IMG/VR virus record: IMGVR_UViG_3300027985_000790
Span: 1-62,337 of that record
Direction: 5' to 3' (one strand)
Length of the DNA: 62,337 nucleotides
Origin: a virus
Made by a program: the position numbers and the translations under genes. The stretch's first letter is position 1; each line of letters begins with the position of its first letter. Of the stretch, positions 2,741 to 44,226 are shown piece after piece. The notes below the pieces were generated by a model. That model ran no database searches and had not been told where the DNA came from. It saw nothing but the letters and a program-made list of their open reading frames with translations.

Positions 2741-4540
2741 CTATTCACAGGTTTTCTTACCCGTGTCGGGGTCAATATAGCACGCCGCGCCTTCCTTTGT
2801 ATCGAGGGAAGTTAGGACCGCAAAGCGTTTACCGGACATCCGGAAAGTTGTGCAGCCCTTGGCTCCGCCTTCCCAGGCAGTCATGTAGACGTTCTTGAAC
2901 TCGTCAAAGGTGACGTTATCTCCTACGTTGCAGGTCTTGCTGATGGCTGAGTCGATGTACTTCTGAGCAGCAATGAGAACCTCCACGTGCTGCTGGACGG
3001 TAAGGTCATCTGCCCGGATGCCTTTGACACCGAACTCCCTGACGCCAAAGTCGCTTATCTCAACCTGCCGGCGAGATACCCCGTCGTCGTTGATGATGAA
3101 CCGTTGCTGGGAGTATGCAAACACAGGCTCTATACCAGAAGAGATATTGTCTGCAGTCAGTGAGATGGTGCCTGTGGGGGCAATGGACAGCAAGTGGGAA
3201 TTTCGGATACCATGCTCCACAATGCCGTCCCGGATATCTTGAGGCAAGGTCTTGATGAACTCAGAGGACAAGTACTCAGCCCACTGGAACAGCGGGAACG
3301 GACCTTTTTCCTCAGCAAGCGCAATGGAGGCGCGGTAGCATTCGTCTCGCAGTACCTCAAGGATCTCACTCTGCTTGTCAATGTAGGCTTGGGTCCCGTA
3401 AGGCAAACCCAGAGCTTCCAGTGCATTGGCAACGCCCGTCACGCCCAGACCCATGCGGCGCTTGTCCTTGGCTTCCTTCTCCTGGGCCGGCAGCGGGTAG
3501 ATGGCGTAGTCGACCACGTTATCCATGGCGCGCACCACGCCCGGGATATCTGACTTGAAGGCTTCCATATCGAAGAAGCGCTGGCCACCATGGGTGCGGA
3601 TGTAGCTGGTCAGGTTGAAGGATCCGAGCAGGCAGGCGCCATGCGGCGGGAGGGGTTGCTCAGCGCAGGGGTTGGTGGCAGCAATCGTCTCGCAGTACCA
3701 GAGGTTGTTGCTTTTGTTGATACGGTCGATGAACAACACTCCAGGTTCCGCCCAATCCCAGGTAGCGCGCATGATTTTGTTCCAAAGGGCTTCCGCATCC
3801 ACTGTCTTGTAGACCTGGCCATCGAATACCAAGTCAAAAGGCTCTTTGGCTTTAACGGCTTCCATGAATTTGTCCGTAACGGCTATTGAGACGTTGAAGG
3901 CCGCCAACCTGTTCTGAATACTTACCTTGGACACGATTTCCATCAACTGAGCTGTGGTAGCGGCATTGAAGCCGGCTTGACTGGCCAAGTACTCAGCTCG
4001 GCTCATGTCCTCGGACAAAGCAACCGTCTTTGCGTCGATGAACTCCTCAATGTCCGGATGGTCAACGCGTAGCACGCCCATCTGGGCACCACGCCGGCCG
4101 CCGGCAGAGCGTACCGTCTTGCAGGTGGCATCGAAGATATGCATGAAAGAAACCGCGCCCGAGGCTTCCGATTGGAACGACTTGATACGCGACCCACGAG
4201 GACGCAGCGTGGAGAAATCGTAGCCGATACCGCCGCCAGTGCGCATGGTCATGAAGGCTTCTTTTGCCATGTCCATGATTGAAGACGAGTCGTCTTCAAT
4301 CGTGCCCGACACGAAGCAGTTGTAGGGCGTAACCCGCAGCGGAGAGCCAACCGCTCGTTGGATGCGACCAGCCGGCATGAAGTTCTGCTGGAGCAAAGTC
4401 ATTCGGAAGTCGCGCCTGTGCTGCTCATTATCACACAAGGCACCGGAAATGCGGTTGCACAGGTCAAGAAATGACTCGCCGGCAAGGCGGTACTTTGAGA
4501 TGTGCTCCTGCTCAGACACTGGATTTGTCGGACCGTACAT
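2741..4540 (-). CDS. nrdJ: Adenosylcobalamin-dependent class II ribonucleotide reductase
   Basis: A 599-residue class II reductase that makes deoxynucleotides using coenzyme B12, without a separate radical subunit. Visible active-site features are Cys75 (YNCFVSG), the GGGIGYDFS loop near 102-110, and the finger loop NPCAEQPLPPHGAC at 290-303, with Asn290, Cys292 (thiyl radical) and Glu294. Cys303 is 11 residues after the radical Cys, as in known NrdJ. The C-terminus carries a Cys pair ten residues apart (CYIDPDTGKKTC), probably for re-reduction. The start follows GGAGG. It is placed between portal and minor head genes, an unusual site for a nucleotide enzyme. Activity depends on B12 availability in the host. 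Confidence 0.93.
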   Translation of the reverse strand: MYGPTNPVSEQEHISKYRLAGESFLDLCNRISGALCDNEQHRRDFRMTLLQQNFMPAGRIQRAVGSPLRVTPYNCFVSGTIEDDSSSIMDMAKEAFMTMRTGGGIGYDFSTLRPRGSRIKSFQSEASGAVSFMHIFDATCKTVRSAGGRRGAQMGVLRVDHPDIEEFIDAKTVALSEDMSRAEYLASQAGFNAATTAQLMEIVSKVSIQNRLAAFNVSIAVTDKFMEAVKAKEPFDLVFDGQVYKTVDAEALWNKIMRATWDWAEPGVLFIDRINKSNNLWYCETIAATNPCAEQPLPPHGACLLGSFNLTSYIRTHGGQRFFDMEAFKSDIPGVVRAMDNVVDYAIYPLPAQEKEAKDKRRMGLGVTGVANALEALGLPYGTQAYIDKQSEILEVLRDECYRASIALAEEKGPFPLFQWAEYLSSEFIKTLPQDIRDGIVEHGIRNSHLLSIAPTGTISLTADNISSGIEPVFAYSQQRFIINDDGVSRRQVEISDFGVREFGVKGIRADDLTVQQHVEVLIAAQKYIDSAISKTCNVGDNVTFDEFKNVYMTAWEGGAKGCTTFRMSGKRFAVLTSLDTKEGAACYIDPDTGKKTCE

Positions 4541-4618
4541 AAAGAAAGCCTCCGTGGGTTAATCACAAGTAATTGTGATACAGCTCAGCGGAGGCCTCAA
4601 GATATGGGATTCGATTTG

Positions 4619-6055
4619 TTAGGTTTCTTCCTCACCCGGCGGTTGTTCCTCGGGTTCTTCCTCGGGAGGAACTGTTTCTTCCGGCGGGGTCTTGTCAAAG
4701 TCGCCAGCCTCTTCCAGGATTTCTTCCACTTCCTCCTCCATCGTGCGACCAGCGCGGACGATTTGGCCCCGCTGCAGGTTCTCGTGGAGGGTAGTGCGGG
4801 AGATGGCTTCGCCTTGCCATGCTTCAACCAGAGCCTTGAGCTCGTCTGAGGTCATTCGGGCTTCAATCCAGTCATGGTTCAGCAAGCAGTCAACTTCGTC
4901 CGGGCTCTCACCGGCCCATACGGCAGCAGCACGCAGCAGCTGGTTAAGCACGGCCTGCGCCATATTGACGACGGAAGTCAGCAGGGACACTTCGGAGCGA
5001 CCGCGCATCCGGGCGGTATCCGTCGTCTCGTTGCGGTTCTTGCCATCGTTTATCATCCGCGCACCGAGAGCAGCCATCCGGTCTTCCTTGTCGTCCATGG
5101 CTTTCTGCTGTGCCGTGATGCCCGCGCCTGTGAACTCGAGCATGCCGCATGTAGCATCCTCCGGCAAGTACCAGATGGTACCTGAACCAATGGACTTAGG
5201 CTTCTTCTGCTCGTCCAAGTTCCCTGCTATCCATGGCGTTGGCTGAGCAGTGAGGTAGAGAGCATGCTCGTAGTCAGCAGAATTCCGGTAGTGTGACAGG
5301 TTCATGTTGACGAGATCCAGCATGGGAGGCTTGCAGGTAGTCGGACGCAGGTCGTAAGCGTTGGCGAAGAAGAAGGGGATGCTAACCTCGTTCTTACCGT
5401 TGACCACCGGCTGGAAGCTACTGACCTCCAGCAACTCCTTGGTCTTGCCGCTGGCGTCGTTCTTCAACTCCCTGACGGTGTAGAGCCCAGCATCATCAAG
5501 GGTGAGCTCCAGATACTCGTGACCGATGTCCCCACCGTTGCTCTCCAAGTCGTCCTTGAGCAGCAAGTAGCACAGCTCCTTCTTGCCTGTCCGCTCGTTG
5601 TAGCGCAGTTTCCAATCCAGGATGTCTTCTGCGAAGTACGTGGTGGCTACAGGAGCCGTCCCCACAGGAGCATTCTTCGGCATATCCAGCAGAATCCCGT
5701 ACCGCCCGAGCGACAAAAGCTCTGAGACGATCTCGTCTACCAGAACTTCCAAAGATGACCCATCTGCCGTGAAGACGTCCCGCACAGCCTCAAGCCGTGG
5801 GGTAAGCTTGAACACAGGGTCAGTGCGCAACACCATGCCTACAAGACCCCGTAGCGTGCGTTCTGCGACGGCGTAGTAAACAGCCCGCATCTTGTATGCG
5901 GCGTACTGTGTGGTGTTCATACCAGAGGGCTTGGGCAAGTACAGCGTGCCTTGCTCTTTCACGCAGTCCTCACCGTCCAATGCGTCTCGGATCTTCCGCC
6001 ACTGTTCGAGACGCAGCGAGTAGCTGGCGTGGCAGAGGGTTGCTATTGCACTCAT
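4619..6055 (-). CDS. Portal protein, DUF4055 family
   Basis: A 478-residue portal candidate. The N-terminal pattern (WRKIRDALDGEDCVK, then YLPKPSG, then RTLRGLVGMVLRTDP) is typical of DUF4055 proteins, which occupy the portal position in many phages. The C-terminal tail, from about residue 445, is a low-complexity run of Glu and Pro. The portal forms the dodecameric DNA channel at the capsid vertex. It lies downstream of the large terminase and overlaps the preceding small gene by four bases. The family assignment is from memory of its pattern, and the role is supported by synteny. Confidence 0.85.
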   Translation of the reverse strand: MSAIATLCHASYSLRLEQWRKIRDALDGEDCVKEQGTLYLPKPSGMNTTQYAAYKMRAVYYAVAERTLRGLVGMVLRTDPVFKLTPRLEAVRDVFTADGSSLEVLVDEIVSELLSLGRYGILLDMPKNAPVGTAPVATTYFAEDILDWKLRYNERTGKKELCYLLLKDDLESNGGDIGHEYLELTLDDAGLYTVRELKNDASGKTKELLEVSSFQPVVNGKNEVSIPFFFANAYDLRPTTCKPPMLDLVNMNLSHYRNSADYEHALYLTAQPTPWIAGNLDEQKKPKSIGSGTIWYLPEDATCGMLEFTGAGITAQQKAMDDKEDRMAALGARMINDGKNRNETTDTARMRGRSEVSLLTSVVNMAQAVLNQLLRAAAVWAGESPDEVDCLLNHDWIEARMTSDELKALVEAWQGEAISRTTLHENLQRGQIVRAGRTMEEEVEEILEEAGDFDKTPPEETVPPEEEPEEQPPGEEET

Positions 6056-8675: not shown

Positions 8676-8697
8676 AGTACCTTTCTCCTGGTGTGTT

Positions 8698-8725
8698 TTT
8701 ATACAGTTTGATAACCGCTTATAAA
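8698..8725 (-). promoter_or_regulatory. Candidate promoter for packaging and head operon
   Basis: On the minus strand, TTTATA-N16-TATAAA lies about 20 bases before the small terminase start. The 16-base spacer contains the repeated motif ATAACCGCTT (8711-8720), placed like a repressor operator. A TTGACA box (8768-8773) further upstream could mark a second promoter. Confidence 0.4.
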
Positions 8726-8913
8726 GATCTCTTCATTTAGGTTATTCTGAAAGAATAGGTGACTTCGTGTCAACTATAAAGATAGGTGGAAAATGCCTAG
8801 ATTTAGGCGGTTCTAGCGGTGCAAGGTATAAGGATTGGGATAGAATTTTAGCAGCGCCAAAAACGGTATAACCGGGGGCAGGGATAGTGCTAATCCTGGA
8901 GCTCGCCTGGCGC

Positions 8914-8928
8914 TGATAATGATTATCA
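8914..8928. promoter_or_regulatory. Perfect Fur-box-like palindrome
   Basis: The sequence TGATAATGATTATCA is a perfect 7-1-7 inverted repeat and matches the known Fur operator core of enterobacteria and pseudomonads. It stands at the edge of the repeat array, whose units share the half-site ATTATCA. Whether host Fur or a phage protein binds here is not known. Confidence 0.5.
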
Positions 8929-8946
8929 TTTAGGGGTCCCCGAAAC

Positions 8947-9360
8947 GCGACTCATTATCATCCGCACCCGCAACTGCGAATGATTATCAGTACCCGATGC
9001 AACCGCGAATGATTATCACCTCGCCCTTGACTGCGAATCATTATCAGTCGCCCATGCAAACGAGACGCATTCGCAGACGCATCACCTAATGCGAATCATT
9101 ATCAGTCAACCTCGGAACGCGAATCATTATCAGGTGCAATAGGTGACGCGACTCATTATCAGTCAACCTCGGAACGCGAACCGTTCTCATTCGCATTGTG
9201 GCAAAAGGACAACGCGACTAGGTCTCATATGCACGGAAGGTGATATGCGAACAGGTCTCATTTGCGGGTGATAATCGGTCGCATATGAGGTGCAGGTGAT
9301 ATGCGAATGAGTATCAATTGGGTTGTTATGATGGGACAGTGCAAATGCGACTCATAATCA
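8947..9360. repeat. Array of about 12 copies of GCGANTNATTATCA
   Basis: Copies start at 8947, 8976, 9005, 9033, 9091, 9119, 9148, 9176, 9214, 9247, 9303 and 9347. The first eight are spaced 29, 29, 28, 58, 28, 29 and 28 bases apart, so they share a ~29-bp period; a degenerate copy fills the gap at 9062. Early copies are near identical (GCGAATGATTATCA, GCGACTCATTATCA or GCGAATCATTATCA), while later copies diverge. The stretch ATCAGTCAACCTCGG between units also repeats exactly at a 58-bp distance. The regular period suggests cooperative protein binding on one DNA face. Confidence 0.85.
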
Positions 9361-9655
9361 TTTGCAGTTGGAAATCGGGCGCGGGCAGGACGGCAGCAGT
9401 TGTTTTGCGTCTCGTTCGCATTACACATGCATGTGAACGCAATCGCTTTAACCTATTGCATCACGAATAGCGTATCCTGTTTTCCTATCCGTGTATAAAT
9501 AAAAACCGCATCTGCAACCACAAACATTCTGTCGTAACCCATTGTTCTGTAACCTAAAACAACTCCTTGATTATCACCGTTTATGACCATGTGTGGTTTA
9601 TTCTTATATGCCTAAACCAATGAAAACACTAACAAATTCATGATTATATAAATAA

Positions 9656-9719
9656 AAACCACAAAAACCACACCACGTCTTCGTATGCGCACGTGCGCGT
9701 ACACGCGTGCGCGGATGTG
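9656..9719. repeat. 64-bp repeat copy 1 with Z-DNA-prone core
   Basis: Shares flanks and core with 43635-43698. Bases 9682-9713 alternate perfectly between pyrimidine and purine for 32 bases, mostly GC, AC and GT steps, a known Z-DNA-forming pattern. The left flank carries A-runs and repeated CCAC. It sits between the AT-rich block and the terminator of the next operon. Confidence 0.8.
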
Positions 9720-9744
9720 TTTTCTGTGCCTATGCGCCGCCCAA

Positions 9745-9769
9745 CAAAAAGCGCGACCGAAGCCGCGCC
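9745..9769 (-). terminator. Intrinsic terminator
   Basis: On the minus strand, a GCGCGGC stem closes on a TTCG tetraloop and is followed by TTTTTG. It lies just downstream of the two-gene operon 9789-10133. Confidence 0.85.
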
Positions 9770-9788
9770 TTTCTCGAACGTTTAAACA

Positions 9789-9947
9789 TCAGAAACGATA
9801 CACGACCATCTCGTAAATGAACCAACGCCCAACGTCGTCCCGATACACGATGCGCGTCTCACCGTCGATGAACGTCACCTCGCCTTCGTCTACGTCATAA
9901 ACCACGACCACTTCTGTACCGTGCTGACTGACCGCTGTAAATTCCAT
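9789..9947 (-). CDS. Small acidic protein, unknown
   Basis: A 52-residue protein starting MEFTAVSQHGTEVV with an acidic, beta-strand-like pattern (VVVYDVDEGEVTFIDGET, then IVYRDDVGRWFIYEM). The ATG follows GGGGGAATGAATC and starts three bases after the stop of the upstream gene, and a terminator follows the stop, so it looks like a real second gene of an operon. No family is recognised. Its stop lies two bases after a GTTTAAAC site. Confidence 0.7.
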   Translation of the reverse strand: MEFTAVSQHGTEVVVVYDVDEGEVTFIDGETRIVYRDDVGRWFIYEMVVYRF

Positions 9948-9950
9948 GAT

Positions 9951-10133
9951 TCATTCCCCCATCCAAATGGCGACGCTGTCTTCCGCGTCGCACGTCATAC
10001 ATGCGATAATTTCGGCTGCCTGTTCAATGATAGCCGCGTCCGTTGCGTCATCGCCCAACAATTCACGTGCCTCTGCGATGCAGGCAACGACGAAGGCCCG
10101 GTAGGTTTCATGTCTTTCTGTAATTGCGTCCAT
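9951..10133 (-). CDS. Small helical protein, unknown
   Basis: A 60-residue protein rich in Ala, Glu and Asp, predicted helical, with several Cys (VACIAEAREL, then IIACMTCDAED). The ribosome site TTGAGGA precedes the ATG, and a GTACGCAAA-N16-CATAAT promoter lies about 35 bases upstream. It forms a two-gene operon with 9789-9947. Early-expressed host-takeover genes often look like this; no function is claimed. Confidence 0.75.
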   Translation of the reverse strand: MDAITERHETYRAFVVACIAEARELLGDDATDAAIIEQAAEIIACMTCDAEDSVAIWMGE

Positions 10134-10165
10134 GATGCAATCCTCAATTCGTTTATCACATTATT

Positions 10166-10196
10166 ATTATGACGCATAAATCCTTTATTTGCGTAC
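10166..10196 (-). promoter_or_regulatory. Promoter of the GTACGCAAA class (copy 1)
   Basis: On the minus strand: GTACGCAAA, 16 bases, then CATAATAAT. It drives 10133-9789. Two further copies with identical spacing occur at 10807-10837 and 10869-10899, each in front of a gene with a good ribosome site. Confidence 0.65.
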
Positions 10197-10224
10197 CGAT
10201 TGCAAAAATTCTTTTCATTCTTTC

Positions 10225-10250
10225 TGCGACTGATTCTCATTCGCGCACCT
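10225..10250. repeat. 26-bp direct repeat, copy 1
   Basis: Exact 26-base match to 11176-11201, containing GCGACTGATTCTCATTCGC, an imperfect palindrome related to the 8.9-kb array units. The gap 10197-10459 otherwise holds only a terminator and degenerate versions of the same motif (for example around 10386-10403). Confidence 0.8.
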
Positions 10251-10410
10251 CACAGATCACGTCACATTCGCATCCTATGCACCCATCAATGCACTTGCAT
10301 CAACCAGACATGCGACGCAGCAGCGTGCGATTCACGAGGTTTTACGATACCCCCGGGGAGTATTTCACGAATCATGAAAACACGACTGATACTCATTCGC
10401 ATCAAACACG

Positions 10411-10439
10411 CAAAATAAACGCGATTCAGTTGAATCGCG
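10411..10439 (-). terminator. Intrinsic terminator
   Basis: Minus-strand stem CGCGATTC/GAATCGCG with a four-base loop (10420-10439), followed by TTTATTTTG. It ends the operon 10769-10460. Confidence 0.85.
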
Positions 10440-10459
10440 TCGTTTGTTCAATGCGCCTC

Positions 10460-10561
10460 CTACAGCGCTGCTGAGATTGCACTGAGGGCCATGACCAGCG
10501 CGTCAACGAAAGCCCAACCGATGACCGTCACAACGACGACGACAACCAGAACCTTAGACAT
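10460..10561 (-). CDS. 33-residue membrane peptide
   Basis: Reads MSKVLVVVVVVTVIGWAFVD and then ALVMALSAISAAL, a single hydrophobic segment spanning nearly the whole peptide. The ribosome site GGGAGGTGAATC is excellent, it directly follows 10554-10769, and the terminator follows. It is probably an inner-membrane peptide. Function is unknown. Confidence 0.7.
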   Translation of the reverse strand: MSKVLVVVVVVTVIGWAFVDALVMALSAISAAL

Positions 10562-10769
10562 GATTCACCTCCCGAGCGTTGAGGTAAGCAGACAGCGTGC
10601 GTTCAAGGTAAGACAGCTTGATGTCTACGCTTTCGTCATCACCACAAACGCTGCTGAAGAAGTCGTGACCATCATCCAAGTTGCAATGATGCTCACCTTC
10701 TACATATGCATAAGTGAAGGCGAGGCCATTGGCTGCTGCGAGTCTAGTTACACGAGCAAGAACGTCCAT
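10554..10769 (-). CDS. Small protein, unknown
   Basis: A 71-residue, mildly acidic protein (MDVLARVTRLAAANGLAF, later LDDGHDFFSSVCGDDES). The start follows GGGAGGTGTGTC. It is the first gene of a two-gene leftward operon with the membrane peptide 10460-10561, under the promoter at 10807-10837. No family is recognised. Confidence 0.75.
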   Translation of the reverse strand: MDVLARVTRLAAANGLAFTYAYVEGEHHCNLDDGHDFFSSVCGDDESVDIKLSYLERTLSAYLNAREVNHV

Positions 10770-10806
10770 GACACACCTCCCGATAACAAATTAAACCTTC
10801 ATTATC

Positions 10807-10837
10807 ATTATGACGCATAGCTCACCTTTTTGCGTAC
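10807..10837 (-). promoter_or_regulatory. Promoter of the GTACGCAAA class (copy 2)
   Basis: Minus-strand GTACGCAAA-N16-CATAAT upstream of 10769. Its GTACGCAAA box is one arm of a 12-bp perfect inverted repeat (10828-10839 with 10867-10878) whose other arm is the box of the divergent promoter, so one regulator could control both. Confidence 0.65.
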
Positions 10838-10868
10838 TCGAAAATAAAAAATTTATTTTGCATTGTGA

Positions 10869-10899
10869 GTACGCAAAACCTTTAAAGGTGAATCATAAT
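10869..10899 (+). promoter_or_regulatory. Promoter of the GTACGCAAA class (copy 3)
   Basis: Plus-strand GTACGCAAA, 16 bases, CATAAT, upstream of the gene at 10930. It is divergent from copy 2 across a 27-base AT-rich gap. Confidence 0.65.
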
Positions 10900-10929
10900 A
10901 AACATGTAACAACAAACGAGGATAACATC

Positions 10930-11139
10930 ATGAACGCTGCTGAATTCCGTGAAACTGTTTTTGAACTCGGTCAGGTCATCACGACGACCAAAGGTGTACA
11001 GCTGACCATTATCGGCTTTGTGCGTGATATGTTGATCTGCGACTGCTCAGGCGAACTGTTCACCGTGCACCGCAATGGCTATATCAGATACTGCGAGTTG
11101 GCGCTTTCTGCTGAGCAGGCCGTCGGCCGAGCTTTCTAA
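10930..11139 (+). CDS. Small protein, unknown, only plus-strand gene of its region
   Basis: A 69-residue protein (MNAAEFRETVFELGQVITTT), with a beta-strand pattern and two close Cys (LICDCSGELFTVH). The ATG at 10930 follows GAGGAT, and a strong terminator follows the stop, so it is a single-gene unit. Being isolated, divergent and separately promoted, it may be an early or regulatory gene; no DNA-binding motif is seen. Confidence 0.75.
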   Translation: MNAAEFRETVFELGQVITTTKGVQLTIIGFVRDMLICDCSGELFTVHRNGYIRYCELALSAEQAVGRAF

Positions 11140-11150
11140 CCTGCTGCACT

Positions 11151-11176
11151 AGCCGAGCCATTGCGCTCGGCTTTTT
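11151..11176 (+). terminator. Intrinsic terminator
   Basis: AGCCGAGC / GCTCGGCT stem with a six-base loop, followed by TTTTT, directly after the gene 10930-11139. Confidence 0.9.
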
Positions 11177-11201
11177 GCGACTGATTCTCATTCGCGCACC
11201 T
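11176..11201. repeat. 26-bp direct repeat, copy 2
   Basis: Exact match to 10225-10250 and placed right after the terminator. Further degenerate TCATTTACG- and CATTCG-type units follow to about 11270. Confidence 0.8.
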
Positions 11202-11275
11202 TATTGCGTCTAAATCTCATTTACGACCAAGTCGCATTCGTATATGCACCTCCCTGCATGTACGTCTGCGACCGT

Positions 11276-11301
11276 TTTTCAAAAACCCCGAGCGACATTT
11301 T
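11276..11301. repeat. TTTTCAAAA-CCCCGAGCGACATTT repeat, copy 1
   Basis: Near-identical to the tandem pair at 16641-16697. Here it overlaps the 3' end of the gene 11279-11593 and encodes its last residues (NVARGF) and stop. It always lies at the downstream end of a leftward gene. Confidence 0.75.
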
Positions 11302-31364: not shown

Positions 31365-32564
31365 TCACTCCAGGTTGTCAAAGCCGCCGAAAAGGCTGGC
31401 CGGGGGTCTAACTTCTGCCACGCTGGCTTTCGCCCAGTCGGCGTACTTCTGCAGTTCGCCCATGCACACCAGGTTCCTGATACGAGAATCCCACTGCGCT
31501 GCGGCGAAGTTGAAGCCGTAGCCCTGAATGACTTTCACAATGTACCGCTGGACGTCCTCAGAGCACTTGTCTATGAACTTGTGCGCGGCTTCTGCCTTAC
31601 CACGGATCAGTTCGTTGAAGTTGTTGGTGTCGAGCTCCATCTGATCTATTGAGATGAAGTAGTTGGTGTAGTGACCTTCTTTCCGCTTGCCGGACATACC
31701 CGGCGGGATGAAAATGTCCACCATACCATAGCCACCATGCTGGACCCAAGCAGCGGAGTCACCTGAGTACCACGGAACGGTGCGGATCATCTTGTTACCT
31801 GTGGTGGCCAAACCATGCGTCCGCATGAGTGAGCTTCTTTCACCAATCTGCTTGTGGCACTTGGCTGACCAGTCTACACGCAGGCCTTCTGCAACGTCGT
31901 TCCGAGGTGAAACGCAGATGTAGTTTGAGCCATGCTTCACTTGGTCCATGACCTCGTAAAGACGAGAGGTTGCTTCACCTTGGTGGAATACAGGCAGCAC
32001 GTGGTTACCAAATTCCTTGACCAGGATCTCGAAGTTCCTGTCCGACACTTCAACGGCTTCCTTGAGTTCGGCCAGCGTGGGGTCGCGGCCCCGCTCACCA
32101 GGAATCTTGTCCAAGTTAATCATCCAGATTTCATCAAACAAGGAGCCAGCGCCTTCAATGAAGCGGGAGTACTTGCCCAACACTTCGTCCACGCTGACCT
32201 CGTCACCTTTGTTCCAGGCGGTAAATGCGCCAGAGTCCAGAAGGATGCAGCGAGGATAGGGGTTTCCTGTCAACGAGTCGCAAACCTTTTCCAGCATGTG
32301 TAGCGTGTTCCAGTCGCGCTCGTCTTTGATGCGGACCTGCTTTGCACGGCGCGCAACGTCACGACGGACCAACCCATCTAGTTGCTCAGGATACTTCTTG
32401 AGGAAATCAGCGGAAGTAAAGACGCCATCCTTGACGTCTTCTAACCACCGGAGAACAGCACGCTCGTAGTCGCCGTGCATTGAGAACAGCCGGTGAGTAC
32501 ACAAGCGGTTCTCTACTGTCTGGTACGCATCGTTCCGCGGCGTACCTGATTGGTAGAGGTGCAT
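31365..32564 (-). CDS. dpdA: DpdA, 7-deazaguanine DNA transglycosylase
   Basis: A 399-residue TGT-like enzyme that should exchange guanine in DNA for a 7-deazaguanine base. The conserved CILLDSGAFTAW (Asp110) is the family hallmark, followed by a second aspartate in WMINLDKIPGE and a VLPVFHQGE strand. The C-terminal zinc site of tRNA-TGT (CxCxxC...H) is absent, as is usual for DNA-type enzymes. It is followed downstream by the zinc-ribbon and helicase genes and preceded by queF. Confidence 0.93.
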   Translation of the reverse strand: MHLYQSGTPRNDAYQTVENRLCTHRLFSMHGDYERAVLRWLEDVKDGVFTSADFLKKYPEQLDGLVRRDVARRAKQVRIKDERDWNTLHMLEKVCDSLTGNPYPRCILLDSGAFTAWNKGDEVSVDEVLGKYSRFIEGAGSLFDEIWMINLDKIPGERGRDPTLAELKEAVEVSDRNFEILVKEFGNHVLPVFHQGEATSRLYEVMDQVKHGSNYICVSPRNDVAEGLRVDWSAKCHKQIGERSSLMRTHGLATTGNKMIRTVPWYSGDSAAWVQHGGYGMVDIFIPPGMSGKRKEGHYTNYFISIDQMELDTNNFNELIRGKAEAAHKFIDKCSEDVQRYIVKVIQGYGFNFAAAQWDSRIRNLVCMGELQKYADWAKASVAEVRPPASLFGGFDNLE

Positions 32565-32573
32565 AGTTTGCCC

Positions 32574-33233
32574 CTAGTGCAGAGTGTGGTCAACCAGCGT
32601 GCTGAAGGATGAGACGTCTCGGTAGTCCACTACCATCGTCTCGCCCGTCTCAACGTCCGTCCAAGCGTAGCCGACCACCTCGCCGTTGTACTGGACCAGC
32701 AGTTCGCCATCTTCGGCGGCTTCGTTCATCAGCGTGATCTGCATACCTTCTTTCTGCTCGGGCGAGAAGCCCAGCGGGGGTTCGCTTTCCAGCTCAAAGC
32801 GGAACTGAGGCCGCTCGTACTCGATTTCCGGCCAGAACGGGATGCCGCCACGAGGAGTGAACTGCCCTTCGACCTTCAGCTCCCACGGATCCAGCAGCAC
32901 CAGCAGCGCATTGGTGATGCGGCGGACACAGGACTCGTGGAACTCGCCTACCTGGCGGAAGCTGTTCAGAAACAGTTTGAGCGACTTGGACTCCACGCAC
33001 CAGTTCTTCGGCAAGTACTTGATGACAATGGTGGCGTAGTCAGGCTGGCCAGTCTTCGGGCACAGGCTGGTGAACTCAGGGCACACAATGTGGAGGCGGC
33101 CCACACCTGCTCCGGCGTTCATCGGGTTGGGGATACGCTCCAGCAAGCTGGGATCCGCACCTTCGTAGTGGTAGGTGGTGTTCTGGTTGCCCAGACTCTT
33201 GAGGTGGTCGGATTTGGAAAGTTTCTTGGTCAT
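32574..33233 (-). CDS. queF: QueF, preQ0 reductase with C-terminal extension
   Basis: A 219-residue NADPH-dependent nitrile reductase. The unimodal QueF core has PEFTSLCPKTGQPD (catalytic Cys58, Asp65), the NADPH-motif VESKSLKLFLNSF and EFHESC, then a QFTPRGGI segment. This core ends near residue 150; usual unimodal QueF stops there, but this one continues ~68 residues with no known domain. With the NADPH motif intact it should make preQ1 rather than act as a QueF-L amidinotransferase. The ATG at 33233 follows GAGG; a GTG in frame is possible. Confidence 0.9.
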   Translation of the reverse strand: MTKKLSKSDHLKSLGNQNTTYHYEGADPSLLERIPNPMNAGAGVGRLHIVCPEFTSLCPKTGQPDYATIVIKYLPKNWCVESKSLKLFLNSFRQVGEFHESCVRRITNALLVLLDPWELKVEGQFTPRGGIPFWPEIEYERPQFRFELESEPPLGFSPEQKEGMQITLMNEAAEDGELLVQYNGEVVGYAWTDVETGETMVVDYRDVSSFSTLVDHTLH

Positions 33234-33241
33234 GGTCTGCC

Positions 33242-34132
33242 TCACAGTATTGAGTTGCCATTGGATTTTGCGAGCGACAGAAACTCAGCCCGCGTCTCCG
33301 GTTCATCTTTGAACACCCCGCGCAAGGCGCTGGTGGTCGTGCGGGTACCGGGTGACTTAACGCCACGGGATTCCATGCAGAGGTGGCGACACTGCAAGGT
33401 TACGCCTACGCCCTTACACTGCAGGTGCTCCATGAGCGCATCAGCAATGGACGTGGTGAGGCGCTCTTGGATCTGCAACCGCCGGGCGAAGATATCCACG
33501 AGGCGTACCAGCTTGCTGAGGCCCAGCACCTTGCCGTCGGGTATGTAGGAGATATGGGCCACGCCGAAGAAGGGCGCAACGTGATGCTCACAGTGGGAGT
33601 AGACGGGGATGTCGGTAACGAGCACCATCTCATCTGACTTCTCTGCACCGTCAGCAAAAACCTTCATCACTTCTTCGGGATCCTGCTTGTAGCCACCGAA
33701 CCAGGTTTCCCAGGCACGTACCACTCGGTCAGGTGTGTCCCGGAGACCTTCACGGTTGGGATCTTCGCCGATCTTGACGAGGAACTCTCGCACCAGGTCA
33801 TGCTTGGTCATGGGCTTGCGCTCCCACGGCAGAAGCTCAGGTGTCACCATGCCCACGTTCGAGCGGTGGTGGCTCTTGGTGCTTACCAGACCCAAGCAAC
33901 CACGACTGTACTCCATGGGCAAGTCCAGGCGGTCGTAGATCCGAACTACTCCAGGGTAGTCGCTGCTGTGGGTTATTACCAAGTTTGGGTCCATAGCTTT
34001 GAGTAGCCAGCACACTTGCATGGAGTTGGGCCCTACAGGCAACATCTCCACCATGCCACAAGTAGTGCGCTGCTTTACCAGTTCCAGCAGCTGCTTAGCA
34101 GCTGCTTGGATGTTGAGTTTAGAAAGGTACAT
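33242..34132 (-). CDS. folE: FolE, GTP cyclohydrolase I with N-terminal extension
   Basis: A 296-residue protein. Residues ~108-274 are a full FolE (zinc ligands Cys181, His184 in SHCEHHV, and Cys252 in CRHLCM), which converts GTP to dihydroneopterin triphosphate, the first step of the pathway. The first ~107 residues (MYLSKLNIQAAAKQLLELVK...) are in frame and start after a strong AAGGAG, but do not resemble FolE; an internal ATG with a weak GGGAG could give a short form. It overlaps the QueC and QueF genes closely. Confidence 0.9.
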   Translation of the reverse strand: MYLSKLNIQAAAKQLLELVKQRTTCGMVEMLPVGPNSMQVCWLLKAMDPNLVITHSSDYPGVVRIYDRLDLPMEYSRGCLGLVSTKSHHRSNVGMVTPELLPWERKPMTKHDLVREFLVKIGEDPNREGLRDTPDRVVRAWETWFGGYKQDPEEVMKVFADGAEKSDEMVLVTDIPVYSHCEHHVAPFFGVAHISYIPDGKVLGLSKLVRLVDIFARRLQIQERLTTSIADALMEHLQCKGVGVTLQCRHLCMESRGVKSPGTRTTTSALRGVFKDEPETRAEFLSLAKSNGNSIL

Positions 34133-34134
34133 AG

Positions 34135-34956
34135 CTACTCCTTATAAATGCAGGCAGCTTGCAGAACTTGCCCAAGGCTCTTGCGCTTGAGCGCGTCAGC
34201 ATTGCTGCAGCTGTCGAGAACCTGATAGTTGGGCGTGGCGGGCAGTTCCATGAGGCCTTCCAGCCACGCACGGACGACCAGCGGGTCGGGCACTCCGGCT
34301 TGTGCGAAGCCCTTGGCTCGCAGCAGAGTAGCATGGTCATGACCCGTGGGCGGATAGTTGCCATCGTAGGAGGTGTGAGTGTGGGCCAGCATCTCGTAGC
34401 AGCCGGGCAGTTCCATGGCCAGATTTACGGATTCGGCCTTGGTCAGGTTCATCAGCGGGGTGTGAATGGTGAGACCGTTCAGCGCGCCGTCTTGACCGGT
34501 GAACGTGCCCAGGCAGCAGGCTAGCTGCAAGGCGTCGATGAACACTTGGCGGCAGTCGGGATAGCCACCGAAGTCTTCTTGGCACACACCGGTGACCAGG
34601 TTCTGGCAACCCATGGTATAAGCATGGTTTGCGGCGATGGTGAGGAACAGTTGGTTACGCATCGGAACGAAGGTTTTTTCCAGGCCGCCGGGCAGTACGT
34701 TGAAGTTGTCATACTGCTCCAGTTCATTGCCGCTCACCAAAGGCGAAGCGCCTTTGAGGACGGGGCCCAGCTTGACCACTTCATGCGACTTGGCACCGGC
34801 CCGCTGAGCAATGCGCTTAGCGCATTCCAGCTCCCGGGAGTGCTTCTGGTTGTAATTGAAGGAAATAGCGTGGACCTCGTCAAACTTGTTGAGGGCCCAG
34901 TACAGGCAGGTGGTGGAATCTTGTCCACCGGAAAGGACAACTAGGGCTTTGTTCAT
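34135..34956 (-). CDS. queC: QueC, preQ0 synthase without zinc cysteines
   Basis: A 273-residue PP-loop enzyme (SGGQDST, residues 9-15) that makes preQ0 from CDG. The core matches QueC (TGVCQEDFGGYPDC). At the usual zinc site, where QueC has Cys and then CGxCxxC, this protein has TSYDG and TGHDHAT: all four cysteines are replaced. The C-terminus (LPATPNYQVLDS) is also longer than standard. AGGAGACT precedes the ATG. Confidence 0.92.
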   Translation of the reverse strand: MNKALVVLSGGQDSTTCLYWALNKFDEVHAISFNYNQKHSRELECAKRIAQRAGAKSHEVVKLGPVLKGASPLVSGNELEQYDNFNVLPGGLEKTFVPMRNQLFLTIAANHAYTMGCQNLVTGVCQEDFGGYPDCRQVFIDALQLACCLGTFTGQDGALNGLTIHTPLMNLTKAESVNLAMELPGCYEMLAHTHTSYDGNYPPTGHDHATLLRAKGFAQAGVPDPLVVRAWLEGLMELPATPNYQVLDSCSNADALKRKSLGQVLQAACIYKE

Positions 34957-35034
34957 GGTTTTAGTCTCCTGGTTAAACCATCACAGGTTGCCATTTAACA
35001 ATAATACCAAGTCGGTGATATAACAACCACGCGA

Positions 35035-35520
35035 CTAGGCGGTGTACTCCGCAACTGAGGTTGGTGTCTCCCAGACGCGGATAGTCTTCAATAAAGCCAG
35101 TCCGTGGCTTCTTTTAACCACCTCAGGCGCCAGCTTGTCATGCCAGTGGCGAGCGAGATTCTCAGCAGTGGGCACAAAAGGTACCACGTAGAGTTTCATG
35201 CCGTACTTGTTGGTGCAAGCTTGGGCTTGAGCTTGCGGAATCTCCACGTCCACATGTGGCTCGAACATCTCTACCATCTGAGCATCATTGCACCAGATGC
35301 AGAACCCATGGTCGCAAGGGTCATGGATGAGCTCCATCATGGCTTCCTTGAGGAAACCGAAGTCAAGCACCATGCCTTCTTGCTCGCCGGCAAGATGCAG
35401 GTCTCCTTCACAGACGGCTTCCACTTCATAGCGGTGGCCATGAGGGTTGCGGCATTTGGATCCATGGTGGGTAACGCGGTGGCCCATATCCAACCCAATT
35501 CGCTTGCTGATAATATTCAT
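35035..35520 (-). CDS. queD: QueD, 6-carboxytetrahydropterin synthase
   Basis: A 161-residue enzyme with the zinc histidines (MGHRV, and HGHRY), the catalytic Cys23 and an Asp-His pair in HDPCDHG. PTAENLARHWH and a terminal RVWETPTS complete the family pattern. It makes CPH4 from the FolE product. It overlaps the UvrD-type helicase upstream by four bases. Confidence 0.92.
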   Translation of the reverse strand: MNIISKRIGLDMGHRVTHHGSKCRNPHGHRYEVEAVCEGDLHLAGEQEGMVLDFGFLKEAMMELIHDPCDHGFCIWCNDAQMVEMFEPHVDVEIPQAQAQACTNKYGMKLYVVPFVPTAENLARHWHDKLAPEVVKRSHGLALLKTIRVWETPTSVAEYTA

Positions 35521-37031
35521 GAGATAGCTCCATTAACATCGTAGTAAAATGAGGACTGTGGGTCCATCAAGTACAGGTTTCTTTTTGCTCGAGACGCTGC
35601 CACGAAAAAGACACGCGACTCAGTGGACGGGTTGTTATGGTAGGACAGAACGCTTGACTTGGCAACGTCCAGTTTGAGGACTACGTTCTCGGCTTCACCG
35701 CCCTTTACACCGTGGATAGTTGATACTGTGATTCTAGGCCGATTAACGAGGGATTCTCCGCGTTCTCTAGCCATCCGTATATGGTGACGCACTGACGGGG
35801 GCAACGTCAGCGCTTCCAGCCAGCTTGCGTCTGTGCGCAAGCCAAAGGCACGTTGCAGCTCTTCCATGCTGTAGTTCTCAGCATCCACGAACTCTGCCCC
35901 ACGAAAAGCCTTCTCAACCTTGGTGCCCAAGTAGCCATAGAGCTTAGTTACTGCGCCGCCTTGCAGCATGCCGCCCTTGCGTAAATGCTCCCAAGCCAGC
36001 ACGGCTTTTACCTCGTCACGGTCGGTAGATGCTTTGTACTCACCATCCACCCGGGAAAAGAAAGGTATGCCCAGATCCCATAAGTAGCCACGCCATGGCC
36101 AAAGCAGGTACTCATTACGAGCAAGGAGCATCCACTCGCCTTCATGCAAAGGAAGGTCTCTCAGGTCTTGGAAGTATTCCACTTTGCCGCCTTCCTCAAG
36201 GTACTGCTGCTCTTTGGGATAGCGAGGATTCACGGCAGACACTATGTGCTGGCACAGGTCAAAGACGCTTTTGCGCAAGCGGTACGACTTCTTGAGAACA
36301 ATCTTTTCCCCGTCGATGTTGAGGAAGTAGTTAAGGTCAGCTCCTGCCCACTCGTAGATTGCTTGGTCATCGTCACCAGCAAAGTACACGTTGGGAACAC
36401 CTTCTGCCAGCTTCTCAACCATCTCCCACTGCAGGCGGGACAGGTCTTGTGCTTCGTCCACAATCAGCAGCTCAAAACGTGGGCAGGTACCGAACTGGAC
36501 AAACTGCTCAATCATGTCGGTGTAGTCGACCACGCCTTGGTCACGTTTAAACAGCTTTATTTCTTGTGCCATGCGCTCGGCTCGGTCAGGGCAGGCATCC
36601 ATGTCTTGCGCAACGTCACGCAGTGGCTTCCGCATGAGACGGGCGTAGTGAACCGCTGATAGGGCTTTATCATCATCGGTGAGCATGGGCGGGCCGTCTT
36701 CGCTGTTGTGCCCAGCTGACAGGTCGAACCCTTCAATCTTGGCGAAGCGAGCGAAGCGCTTGTCATCTAGCACCTGGTCTGGGTTAACACCCATCTGCTT
36801 GAATGCTAAGGAGTGCAAGGTGCAGAAGAAGGGAATATCCTCCCGTAAGATGTTGAACTTCTCAGCCATCCGGTCGCGGGCTTCCATGGCTGCCTTGCGC
36901 GTGAAAGCCACGTAGCCAATGGCAATGGGATGCACTCCGCTTTCGAGAGCCTCTTCTACCACGCCAAGGAGGTACGTGGTTTTTCCACAACCAGGCCCTC
37001 CCAGAACCACTCTAGGCTTCTTCATTGTCAT
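35517..37031 (-). CDS. UvrD/PcrA-like SF1 helicase
   Basis: A ~504-residue helicase with Walker A GGPGCGKTT (residues 11-19), LLIVDEAQDLS as Walker B, YFAGDDDQAIYEWAG as motif III, and a C-terminal STIHGVKGGEAENV segment. It unwinds DNA in replication or repair. Start either ATG at 37031 or 37025; both overlap the primase gene. Contains a GTTTAAAC site. Confidence 0.9.
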   Translation of the reverse strand: MTMKKPRVVLGGPGCGKTTYLLGVVEEALESGVHPIAIGYVAFTRKAAMEARDRMAEKFNILREDIPFFCTLHSLAFKQMGVNPDQVLDDKRFARFAKIEGFDLSAGHNSEDGPPMLTDDDKALSAVHYARLMRKPLRDVAQDMDACPDRAERMAQEIKLFKRDQGVVDYTDMIEQFVQFGTCPRFELLIVDEAQDLSRLQWEMVEKLAEGVPNVYFAGDDDQAIYEWAGADLNYFLNIDGEKIVLKKSYRLRKSVFDLCQHIVSAVNPRYPKEQQYLEEGGKVEYFQDLRDLPLHEGEWMLLARNEYLLWPWRGYLWDLGIPFFSRVDGEYKASTDRDEVKAVLAWEHLRKGGMLQGGAVTKLYGYLGTKVEKAFRGAEFVDAENYSMEELQRAFGLRTDASWLEALTLPPSVRHHIRMARERGESLVNRPRITVSTIHGVKGGEAENVVLKLDVAKSSVLSYHNNPSTESRVFFVAASRAKRNLYLMDPQSSFYYDVNGAIS

Positions 37032-38670
37032 ACCGCTTCTCGTCCTTCTCCAGCTCTTTGGGGAACGCAATCCATGGACGGCAGGACTTGCCGGCTACGG
37101 TGGTGCCATTCTGCTTGTAGGAGCAGCCAAGGTCCTGAAGAACTCCAATAAGAATTCGACGCTCATAGTGCAAAGAGTCACGCTTGAGGAACTTATCAAA
37201 AGCCCGGATATCGAACCACGCTTCTGTGCCTTCCTCCTTCATGATAACGCGCCCATTATGGAAGGGCTCGTCACTTGCGGAAGTGTTCATCTTCTCATGA
37301 ATGAAAGTCAGAAGCGCTCGCTTAATCATTGACCGCCGGTCAGAATCTGGCGGGCCCTCTACTTCAGTCATATGAGTCATCCAAGCAGCCAGCATCTCCT
37401 TGAATTTGGCCTCTTGAAGCGTTGGCCAGACTTTGGATGATGCATCTAGCACAGCAGACGCAAACTTGCGCTGGTTGAGGATCTCGTCTGAGGTCATGCG
37501 CATCCGGACACCGTCGATGTTGAAGGCGTAGATGGGCGGGTCCGTCATGATCTTGGTGAAGCCTGAGACCTCCACGCCAATATCTGTGGCGCGGCTGCCA
37601 ATACCATATTCCCGGCGGCGGCACAAAGGTCGGTTGCACTGGCACTTCATAGGCTCCCGGTTGCACTGGTAAGCGTAGTCCCGCTTGCCTTGCTTGACCA
37701 CCAGGTCAATCTCATTGAGCGGCAAACCTAGGTTGCCTTTTACATTCGCCTCGTTTAGGGCCTCTCGTACCTTACCGTCTGCTGCGTCGCCGTACTTACG
37801 GAACAAGTACTGAGCTGCATTGAAGAAAGCAATGTTGCGGCCACCTTCTGCCAGTTGGGGACGGCATTCAGCATCCAGCATTTTTTCCAGCTGCTCTGCT
37901 GTTAGCTCGCCTTTGTCAAACTTGGCACGGAGCTTCTTCTCCCTCACTGTATCACCGACGAACAATTTCTGAATGCAAGGAGGACCGTCGTACCAGTCTT
38001 CTGTCTTGTCAGCATCGGCACGCTCAGTTTTGAGCTCCCGGTTGAAGTCGGCCAGCCAGACATCGGTCACTTGCTTGGCCACTTCTCCTGCCAGGAGCAG
38101 GAAGGTGTCTAAATCGTCAGGACCTGGATGGAATAAACCATGGTCATCTGCTACAACGGAAACAACGCGGCGGGATTCGCCGAAGTAAGGTAGGTTTATC
38201 CAGTTGCCTGTATCATCTTTGCTTGCGCGAGACGTCTGCTTAGGGAAGATCTCGGATCCTGAGTAACCTAACTGAGAACAAACGTTCTGCATGAACTCAA
38301 CTGCTAACTTGGCATTAACGCCTTCGTCTGAGAACATCCAAAGGTGCATACCGTTGGATTTTGAGCGTGTCATAACCAGAGGAAGATTACGGATCCGGAT
38401 GGCAATTTCCATGTGCCAGGTCTCAGCCATACCGTACTTGTCCACGTCTATCGCTGCGAAGTGAACCTTGTTGTCTTCTGTCAGAGGTATAACACCGATA
38501 CCATACTCACCTGCCAAGTGAGCAGCGTAGTCGTCCTGGGCGATGCTGCCATCTATGGTTTCTGCCTTACCTGTCATCTTTCCGGAGTCTTCCTGGGAGT
38601 GAATGCTGTACCTTCCGTACCGCAACTCGAACCCCCGGAAAAGCCTAGCGAACTGTACTATTTTGTCCAC
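37012..38670 (-). CDS. AEP-type primase (TOTE-like)
   Basis: A 552-residue protein with the archaeo-eukaryotic primase signature: FAAIDVDKY (DxD, Asp75 and Asp77) and SNGMHLWMF (SxH, His109). A four-Cys cluster (QCNREPMKCQC then CRRR) at about residue 350 may bind zinc, and the C-terminal domain is helical. It would prime DNA replication. The start is GTG at 38670 after AGGAG. A hairpin (38689-38711) separates it from the SSB gene. Confidence 0.85.
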   Translation of the reverse strand: MDKIVQFARLFRGFELRYGRYSIHSQEDSGKMTGKAETIDGSIAQDDYAAHLAGEYGIGVIPLTEDNKVHFAAIDVDKYGMAETWHMEIAIRIRNLPLVMTRSKSNGMHLWMFSDEGVNAKLAVEFMQNVCSQLGYSGSEIFPKQTSRASKDDTGNWINLPYFGESRRVVSVVADDHGLFHPGPDDLDTFLLLAGEVAKQVTDVWLADFNRELKTERADADKTEDWYDGPPCIQKLFVGDTVREKKLRAKFDKGELTAEQLEKMLDAECRPQLAEGGRNIAFFNAAQYLFRKYGDAADGKVREALNEANVKGNLGLPLNEIDLVVKQGKRDYAYQCNREPMKCQCNRPLCRRREYGIGSRATDIGVEVSGFTKIMTDPPIYAFNIDGVRMRMTSDEILNQRKFASAVLDASSKVWPTLQEAKFKEMLAAWMTHMTEVEGPPDSDRRSMIKRALLTFIHEKMNTSASDEPFHNGRVIMKEEGTEAWFDIRAFDKFLKRDSLHYERRILIGVLQDLGCSYKQNGTTVAGKSCRPWIAFPKELEKDEKRYDNEEA

Positions 38671-43514: not shown

Positions 43515-43634
43515 GGTCGTTCTCCTGTATTGGATAGTTGAAGCCTACAAACCAGACGGCTGAGTTGCAAGATGGCTCCAGGTATTGTGCGCATGGAGAA
43601 TGAGGATAAGTGCTTTATGTCACGAATAGCGCAG

Positions 43635-43698
43635 AAACCACAAAAACCACACCACGTCTTCGTATGCGCACGCGTGTACACACGTGTGCGCGGATGTG
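43635..43698. repeat. 64-bp repeat copy 2 with Z-DNA-prone core
   Basis: Match to 9656-9719. The core 43661-43692 again alternates perfectly between pyrimidine and purine for 32 bases; it differs from copy 1 at about seven sites, all transitions that keep the alternation. It lies in the divergent promoter gap between the leftward gene at 43514 and the rightward regulator operon. Confidence 0.8.
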
Positions 43699-43747
43699 GT
43701 ATCCGCGGTTCATGAAATCACCGCTTTATTTCAATACGGCGCACGCG

Positions 43748-43753
43748 TATAAT
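43748..43753 (+). promoter_or_regulatory. Candidate -10 box of regulator operon
   Basis: TATAAT 49 bases upstream of the gene at 43797; the -35 region is weak and overlaps an ATCACCGCTT motif (43717-43726), which could be an operator. Confidence 0.5.
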
Positions 43754-43796
43754 TCGGTTATCTGGTAGTGTCAACTAATTAAGTAAGGAGAAAATC

Positions 43797-44043: not shown

Positions 44044-44226
44044 ATGACCAAAGAACAATTTATTGACGCCCAAGACGAGTTGGGATTGAACAACGCTCAA
44101 CTGGGTGCCAAGCTGTTTAAATGTGCCCAAAGTGTGTCGAACTACCGTACTGGCCGGCAGAAAGTTCCACGCTCGGTGGAAGCAGCCATCAAGCTGCTGG
44201 TAGCGCAGAAGCGTGACAAGAAGTAA
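44044..44226 (+). CDS. HTH DNA-binding protein (Cro/CI-like)
   Basis: A 60-residue protein with a clear helix-turn-helix: AQLGAKLFKCAQSVSNYRTG aligns with the Q-S-V-S-N-Y recognition helix of Cro/HTH_3-type regulators. A basic tail (KLLVAQKRDKK) follows. AGGAG precedes the ATG. As the only clear HTH regulator in the window and with its own promoter, it may bind one of the repeated motifs (for example ATAACCGCTT). The terminator follows the stop. Confidence 0.8.
   Translation: MTKEQFIDAQDELGLNNAQLGAKLFKCAQSVSNYRTGRQKVPRSVEAAIKLLVAQKRDKK

Follow-up and report, generated by a model that had tools for sequence, protein, structure and literature searches.

What property of the DNA is being kept in a phage repeat whose two copies alternate pyrimidine and purine without a break, and differ in sequence only within the alternating part? 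We asked this of a window of 62,337 bases, a whole IMG/VR record that carries two direct repeats of 64 bases with 91% identity (Table 1). The original prediction gave their coordinates and common strand correctly, and the alternation of both 32-base cores is indeed without exception. Shared flanks had also been claimed; the 38 bases from position 9656 and the right-hand 13 bases, GTGCGCGGATGTG, agree fully between the copies. The core differences had been put at about seven, all transitions; in an ungapped comparison there are six, all of them transitions and all within the core. This ungapped comparison is not forced, and the same differences can be written, by eye, as two 2-base indels plus two transitions.

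The two cores are the longest alternating runs in the window, followed by runs of 14 and 13 bases. The maximum run did not exceed 23 in 200 first-order Markov simulations of the window, and a run of 32 was reached in none of 400 dinucleotide shuffles of gap A and none of 400 of gap B, the intergenic control gaps in which the copies lie. As the copies are related to each other, they do not count as independent events.

Table 1. Positions of the repeats, their alternating tracts and neighboring elements in the window
Feature	Positions	Strand	Remarks
Repeat copy 1	9656..9719	+	In control gap A
Repeat copy 2	43635..43698	+	In control gap B
Unbroken pyrimidine-purine tract of copy 1, 32 bases	9682..9713		ZSeeker-type score 128.5, rank 1 of 47 in the window
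Unbroken pyrimidine-purine tract of copy 2, 32 bases	43661..43692		Segment 43661-43707 scores 112, rank 2 of 47
TGTGGTTT repeat pair, 9 bases apart	9656..9672	-	Adjoins tract of copy 1
TGTGGTTT repeat pair, 9 bases apart	43635..43651	-	Adjoins tract of copy 2
Control gap A	8676..9786	-	Lies upstream of the P95 homologue, the terminase and the structural half; a small reverse-strand ORF, chosen by eye, marks its right end
Control gap B	43515..43796	-	Upstream of replication half; divergent from small + strand genes
Second, shorter CG-rich near-alternating tract, TATACGCGTGCGCCGTAT	43734..43751	-	In gap B; resembles the relatives' first tract
ATAATTCGGTTAT	43749..43761		Partner of the relatives' operator-like palindrome ATAACTCGCTTAT
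GCGA(A/C)T(C/G)ATTATC-type repeat array	8944..9350		
Small HTH-like gene, homologue of Pan1_39	44044..44226	+	Bounds gap B

The window is a Nanhaivirus-like siphophage; its genes include those for portal, terminase, major head protein, tape measure, polymerase and primase, together with queuosine-type genes. The nearest isolates found were Dinoroseobacter phages R5C and R26L and Pseudanabaena phage Pan1, all filed as Nanhaivirus in their records, with capsid identity to the window of about 69% and terminase identity of 50-56%. The portion of PMC10436341 that we consulted applies the same genus name to a T4-like cyanophage. PhoH opens the record and the capsid gene lies near its end, following the gene order of Pan1, so the window is probably a near-complete, circularly permuted genome. 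An archaeo-eukaryotic-type primase, matching AEP-TOTE, is encoded at 37012-38670. In addition, genes of 7-deazaguanine metabolism (queuine tRNA-ribosyltransferase-like, GTP cyclohydrolase, QueC and QueD) are found at 31365-35520; they suggest that guanines of the phage DNA are modified, and such modification would be relevant to any claim about Z-DNA.

Nearly all large genes of the window are on the minus strand, and the two gaps, about half a genome apart, each precede one giant transcription unit. Gaps A and B are both present in relatives, and in all five records that contain both, taken as circular, the distance between them is 0.455-0.492 of the record length. As predicted, copy 2 sits in a divergent regulatory gap beside an HTH gene: gap B adjoins a small HTH-like gene and is divergent from the + strand genes. 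The Pan1 homologue of this gene matches HTH_19 below that family's cutoff, and the window's own protein had no Pfam match.

We gathered relatives by a capsid-alignment scan (31 loci) and a helicase-alignment scan (12 loci), whose records partly overlap, and fetched the larger records. Gap limits were set by us from tblastn matches and ORFs; those of gap A in G013 and G016 were drawn after the runs had been seen. Of 18 family records in which a gap could be scored, the window among them, 14 have their longest alternating run in gap A or B (G001, G005, G008, G010, G013, G015, G016, L015, L017, L018, L022, the window, Pan1 and R26L), against 0.26 records expected by length. In each of these 14 records the best gap run was matched by only 0 to 22 of 400 dinucleotide shuffles of its own gap. 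The four records without a leading tract are G002, L020, R5C and G012, the last scored for gap A only. Two records were omitted from the count for their B gaps (L014, the same as L015, and L087, like L017), and three more (G014, G017 and G018) had no recognized A or B gap. The relatives' tracts in these two gaps are alternating and CG-rich, with CG making up 108 of the 207 pyrimidine-purine steps in 24 tracts.

Outside this set, no long alternating run was present in the TerL-based relatives L003 and L004. Among 80 loci kept from a TerL alignment scan, only L090 (the G012 record) and L094 contained this family's capsid gene, and no gap A was recognized in L094. A scan with the hub protein alone gave no match, a scan of genome contigs returned only 8 distant helicases, and a final viral scan found no further close family member. 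At the nucleotide level, a 24-base piece of the repeat had no exact match among viral contigs, blastn of 9500-9800 against phages in distant mode gave three chance-level matches, and blastn of 40000-62337 in near mode gave none.

The original prediction proposed asking whether substitutions in related cores are transitions that keep alternation. We examined six well-aligned B gaps (G005, G008, G010, L017, L018 and L022; helicase identity 76-88%), taking as tract columns those within consensus-alternating runs of at least 10. Tract columns comprised 10 that were invariant, 14 with transitions only and 3 with transversions; outside the tracts the corresponding numbers were 62, 39 and 155. The difference between 14:3 and 39:155 is significant by Fisher's test (p = 3.5e-7), with the qualification that columns are not independent evolutionary observations and that tract and flank have a common history. 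In three wider alignments, which are poor and partly misaligned, the transition excess had the same direction (odds 2.1-2.5) and was not significant (p 0.11-0.15); a fourth yielded no consensus tract. The transition-biased constraint is therefore firm for the close group and only tentative for the family as a whole.

Decay of CpG usually yields transitions. The tracts could be a residue of CpG decay, of dinucleotide slippage or of a recent duplication, with no function at all. The 38 bases identical between the copies do indicate that one was copied or converted not long ago. Decay is nevertheless rejected as the cause in the close set: among CpG columns only, transitions and transversions stood at 11:1 in tracts and 6:18 in flanks (p = 0.0002), and fourfold codon sites of the helicase in CpG context gave 13:35. 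At that divergence, then, neither base composition nor CpG decay is the source of the pattern. The tracts of the six relatives also align without a single indel, and tract position is kept in 14 of 18 records; we regard an absence of function as highly improbable.

The alternation does have exceptions. In the tract closest to the replication operon, which reads TTGCGCGAGCGC or a close variant, an A after G breaks the alternation in five of the six close relatives, and the tracts of R26L and G001 are broken elsewhere (by eye). These breaks bring the rule nearer to keeping purine/pyrimidine order than to alternating at any cost. The predicted selection for a structural property gains from the recurrent placement of the tracts and from their transition bias in the six close relatives, and loses its strictest form.

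As examples of such a property, a hairpin and left-handed DNA had been proposed. The first of these did not hold up. Over 24 tracts, hairpin energies had mean ranks of 0.43 and 0.42 among alternation-keeping shuffles (0.5 expected), and selection on hairpin formation was rejected on these grounds. A related idea is that the repeat works as a terminator, leader or antiterminator by forming a hairpin in RNA or in a single strand. It draws on copy 2, whose DNA folds so well on the + strand that only 1 of 200 dinucleotide shuffles was as good, and on a terminator-like call at copy 1, on the + strand only and within the shuffle range. Against it, folding of copy 1 is unremarkable (25 of 200 shuffles equally good), copy 2 received no terminator call, and the main transcription units do not run in the + strand direction. 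An intrinsic terminator (GC hairpin plus U run ending a unit) was not found at both copies, promoter and terminator tools returned nothing above shuffles, and there was no Rfam match and no tRNA. We consider such a hairpin very unlikely.

As for left-handed DNA, the tracts have the sequence character of Z-DNA, being long alternations rich in CG steps. We scored them with our own re-implementation of the weights published with ZSeeker (PMC12123511, consulted in part), at a threshold of 50. Left-handed DNA is possible at the window's copies, which score 128.5 and 112 on these weights. Over the 18 records, 46 segments scoring at least 50 lie in the gaps against about 24.5 expected (hand sum); the best segment of a record lies within a gap in only 5 of 18, other segments scoring higher elsewhere. 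Because this scoring merges long GC-rich coding stretches, ranks in GC-rich records are weak evidence in either direction.

Several elements keep company with the tracts. In 9 of 15 B gaps, the tract forms the -35 and the 17-18-base spacer of a TTGC...TA promoter-like pair, the spacer being CG-alternating; the window's pair of this type falls outside the repeat. The distance from a preceding GATC to the tract is 25-28 bases in the three units of G001, in G008 and L015, in both gaps of Pan1 and in gap A of R26L. Pan1 and G001 have the tract and its GATC spacing in gap A without recognizable promoter hexamers (by eye); a promoter role therefore cannot be the whole reason for the tract. The operator-like palindrome ATAACTCGCTTAT, which occurs up to about a dozen times per genome (Pan1, R26L) and also beside the small HTH gene, is likely to be the operator of the small HTH regulator.

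These arrangements raise the alternative that proteins bind the tracts in the ordinary way, through a degenerate motif, approximately TT-R-CGCG-N-R-Y-GCGCG, whose purines and pyrimidines are read indirectly without any unusual structure; those tracts that lie over the replication promoter would be operators. Invariant TTACGCG and TTGCG do flank the variable positions, the spacing to GATC and to the -10-like hexamer is nearly fixed, and the conserved break in the second tracts of the close relatives suits a degenerate motif equally well. However, about ten successive positions are free within R or within Y, which would be unusual if a protein read the bases directly. The gap A tracts of Pan1 and G001 have no promoter hexamers beside them, and the tracts of G015, G013, G016 and the window differ strongly in sequence while alternation stays. 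A plain binding site is thus a serious contender that we nonetheless judge rather unlikely.

Both gaps also carry direct repeats. Phage-peculiar words are shared by A and B in all five genomes with both gaps; the longest such words are 38 nt in the window, 23 in Pan1, 17 in R26L and 19 in R5C, while in G001 TCAGTTGA is found only in the gaps, with two copies in A and two in B. Other words are concentrated in the control gaps: TGCAGGGT (7 of 13 copies in Pan1 and 4 of 6 in R26L) and GCAGGGAA in G005 (5 of 6). Clustered short direct repeats are clear in gap A of the window and in Pan1, R26L, G001, G005, G008 and R5C; an 8-mer with at least three copies in the gap or gaps was absent from G002, G010, G013, G015, L018 and L020. 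In the window, all seven exact matches to GCGAMTSATTATC, of the GCGA(A/C)T(C/G)ATTATC type, fall within 8676-11278 and none in gap B. TGTGGTT is likewise paired at a 9-base step in gap A of G016, as TGTGGTTT is in the window, and one of the G016 pairs adjoins that phage's own tract.

The repeats differ between close relatives. By eye, those in the B gaps of G005, G008, G010, L017, L018 and L022 have a common TGCA or GCA start followed by GGG, TGC or TCA, and the differing ends hint at fast-changing specificity of a putative binding protein. We also observed that GCGA(A/C)T(C/G)ATTATC-type repeats and inverted relatives extend over 2.2 kb of the window (8944-9350, 10220-10250, 10371-10402 and 11171-11201), and that the 31-base pieces at 10220 and at 11171 share 97% identity. 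In gap A of G001 (4425-4874), a unit of about 71 bases that includes TGATCAGTTGA and TGCACGCGCACGCGTG stands twice in tandem, and gap B has a matching one.

Our preferred explanation, to which we give a probability of about 0.5, is that the pair of repeats in this phage represents a single, duplicated cis-acting control or origin module with a shape-constrained tract. In such a module, one phage protein would bind the phage-specific short direct repeats at both gaps, and the neighboring alternating tract would owe its conservation to the ease with which negative supercoiling untwists or otherwise deforms it. Deformation would aid the opening of DNA for the start of replication, tune the adjacent promoter, or both; in gap B of most relatives, one tract would serve as the -35 and spacer part of a likely promoter. 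In its strongest structural form, which we put forward only tentatively, the selected property would be pyrimidine-purine alternation itself, acting in both master control gaps as a supercoil-sensitive switch (B-to-Z or easily melted) beside phage-variable repeats.

The most specific form of the duplicated module, overlapping with it, is that A and B would be two replication origins with one common initiator, by analogy with oriL and oriR of SPP1, which provide the precedent (PMC3485210, PMC6316719). Phage-specific direct repeats common to two gaps almost opposite on the map would fit such a pair, as would the GCGAMTSATTATC repeats of the window's gap A and, by eye, an AT-rich stretch beside copy 1. 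These repeats are, however, missing from gap B, copy 2 has no adjoining AT-rich stretch (by eye), and no initiator gene or binding protein was recognized. Gap A had been called origin-like in the original prediction, and only its direct repeats bear this out: no DnaA boxes (exact TTWTNCACA) were found in A or B of five genomes, and fourfold sites in six genomes showed no skew change, with near-equal skews in both halves. Over the whole sequence, the detrended purine skew of the window, Pan1, R26L and R5C does turn close to both gaps, within about 2 kb of B and about 1-5 kb of A. We set this turn aside as evidence for replication, given that synonymous sites are unchanged between the halves; gene content could account for it. 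Two origins therefore seem to us doubtful in this specific form.

Whichever form the duplicated module takes, it points to two places in the genomes of this phage group as likely master control sites or origins. It also supplies a natural set of alleles, at fixed positions, whose bases drift while the order of purines and pyrimidines stays; some of the phages concerned (R26L, Pan1) have been isolated. With such a set, whether alternating DNA is selected for its shape in bacterial or phage control regions becomes directly testable.

Among the papers listed by our literature searches, none joined Z-DNA, phage and origin, five mentioned Z-DNA alongside phage genomes, and none dealt with R26L under that name; in the parts of the R5C paper (PMC5454422) and the Pan1 paper (PMC9837993) that were available, no account of promoters, intergenic regions or a replication origin came up. 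In comparison with potential Z-DNA-forming sequences as treated in the accessible part of the ZSeeker paper (PMC12123511), the window's copies are alike in being alternating, dominated by CG steps and above the threshold; they differ in being known from sequence alone, and coding stretches of GC-rich relatives score higher. Within Nanhaivirus, R26L and Pan1 have homologous gaps with tracts, repeats and GATC spacing, whereas the homologous gaps of R5C lack long tracts and share other words. Iteron-type origins of plasmids and phages carry short direct repeats. The gaps described here resemble them in that such repeats are concentrated in the control gaps and, in several phages, common to both; they differ in having no DnaA boxes, no consistent AT-rich opening element and no recognized initiator gene. 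The nearest described arrangement, judging from the portions consulted (PMC3485210, PMC6316719), is that of SPP1, a lytic siphophage with two separated sites, oriL and oriR, whose common direct repeats are bound by one initiator, gp38 (G38P); as in SPP1, one of the two sites lies in a long intergenic region. The SPP1 sites are 12-13 kb apart, whereas A and B are separated by about half a genome, and, unlike those of SPP1, the repeats shared by A and B vary between close relatives, have no consistent AT-rich element and adjoin CG-rich alternating tracts.
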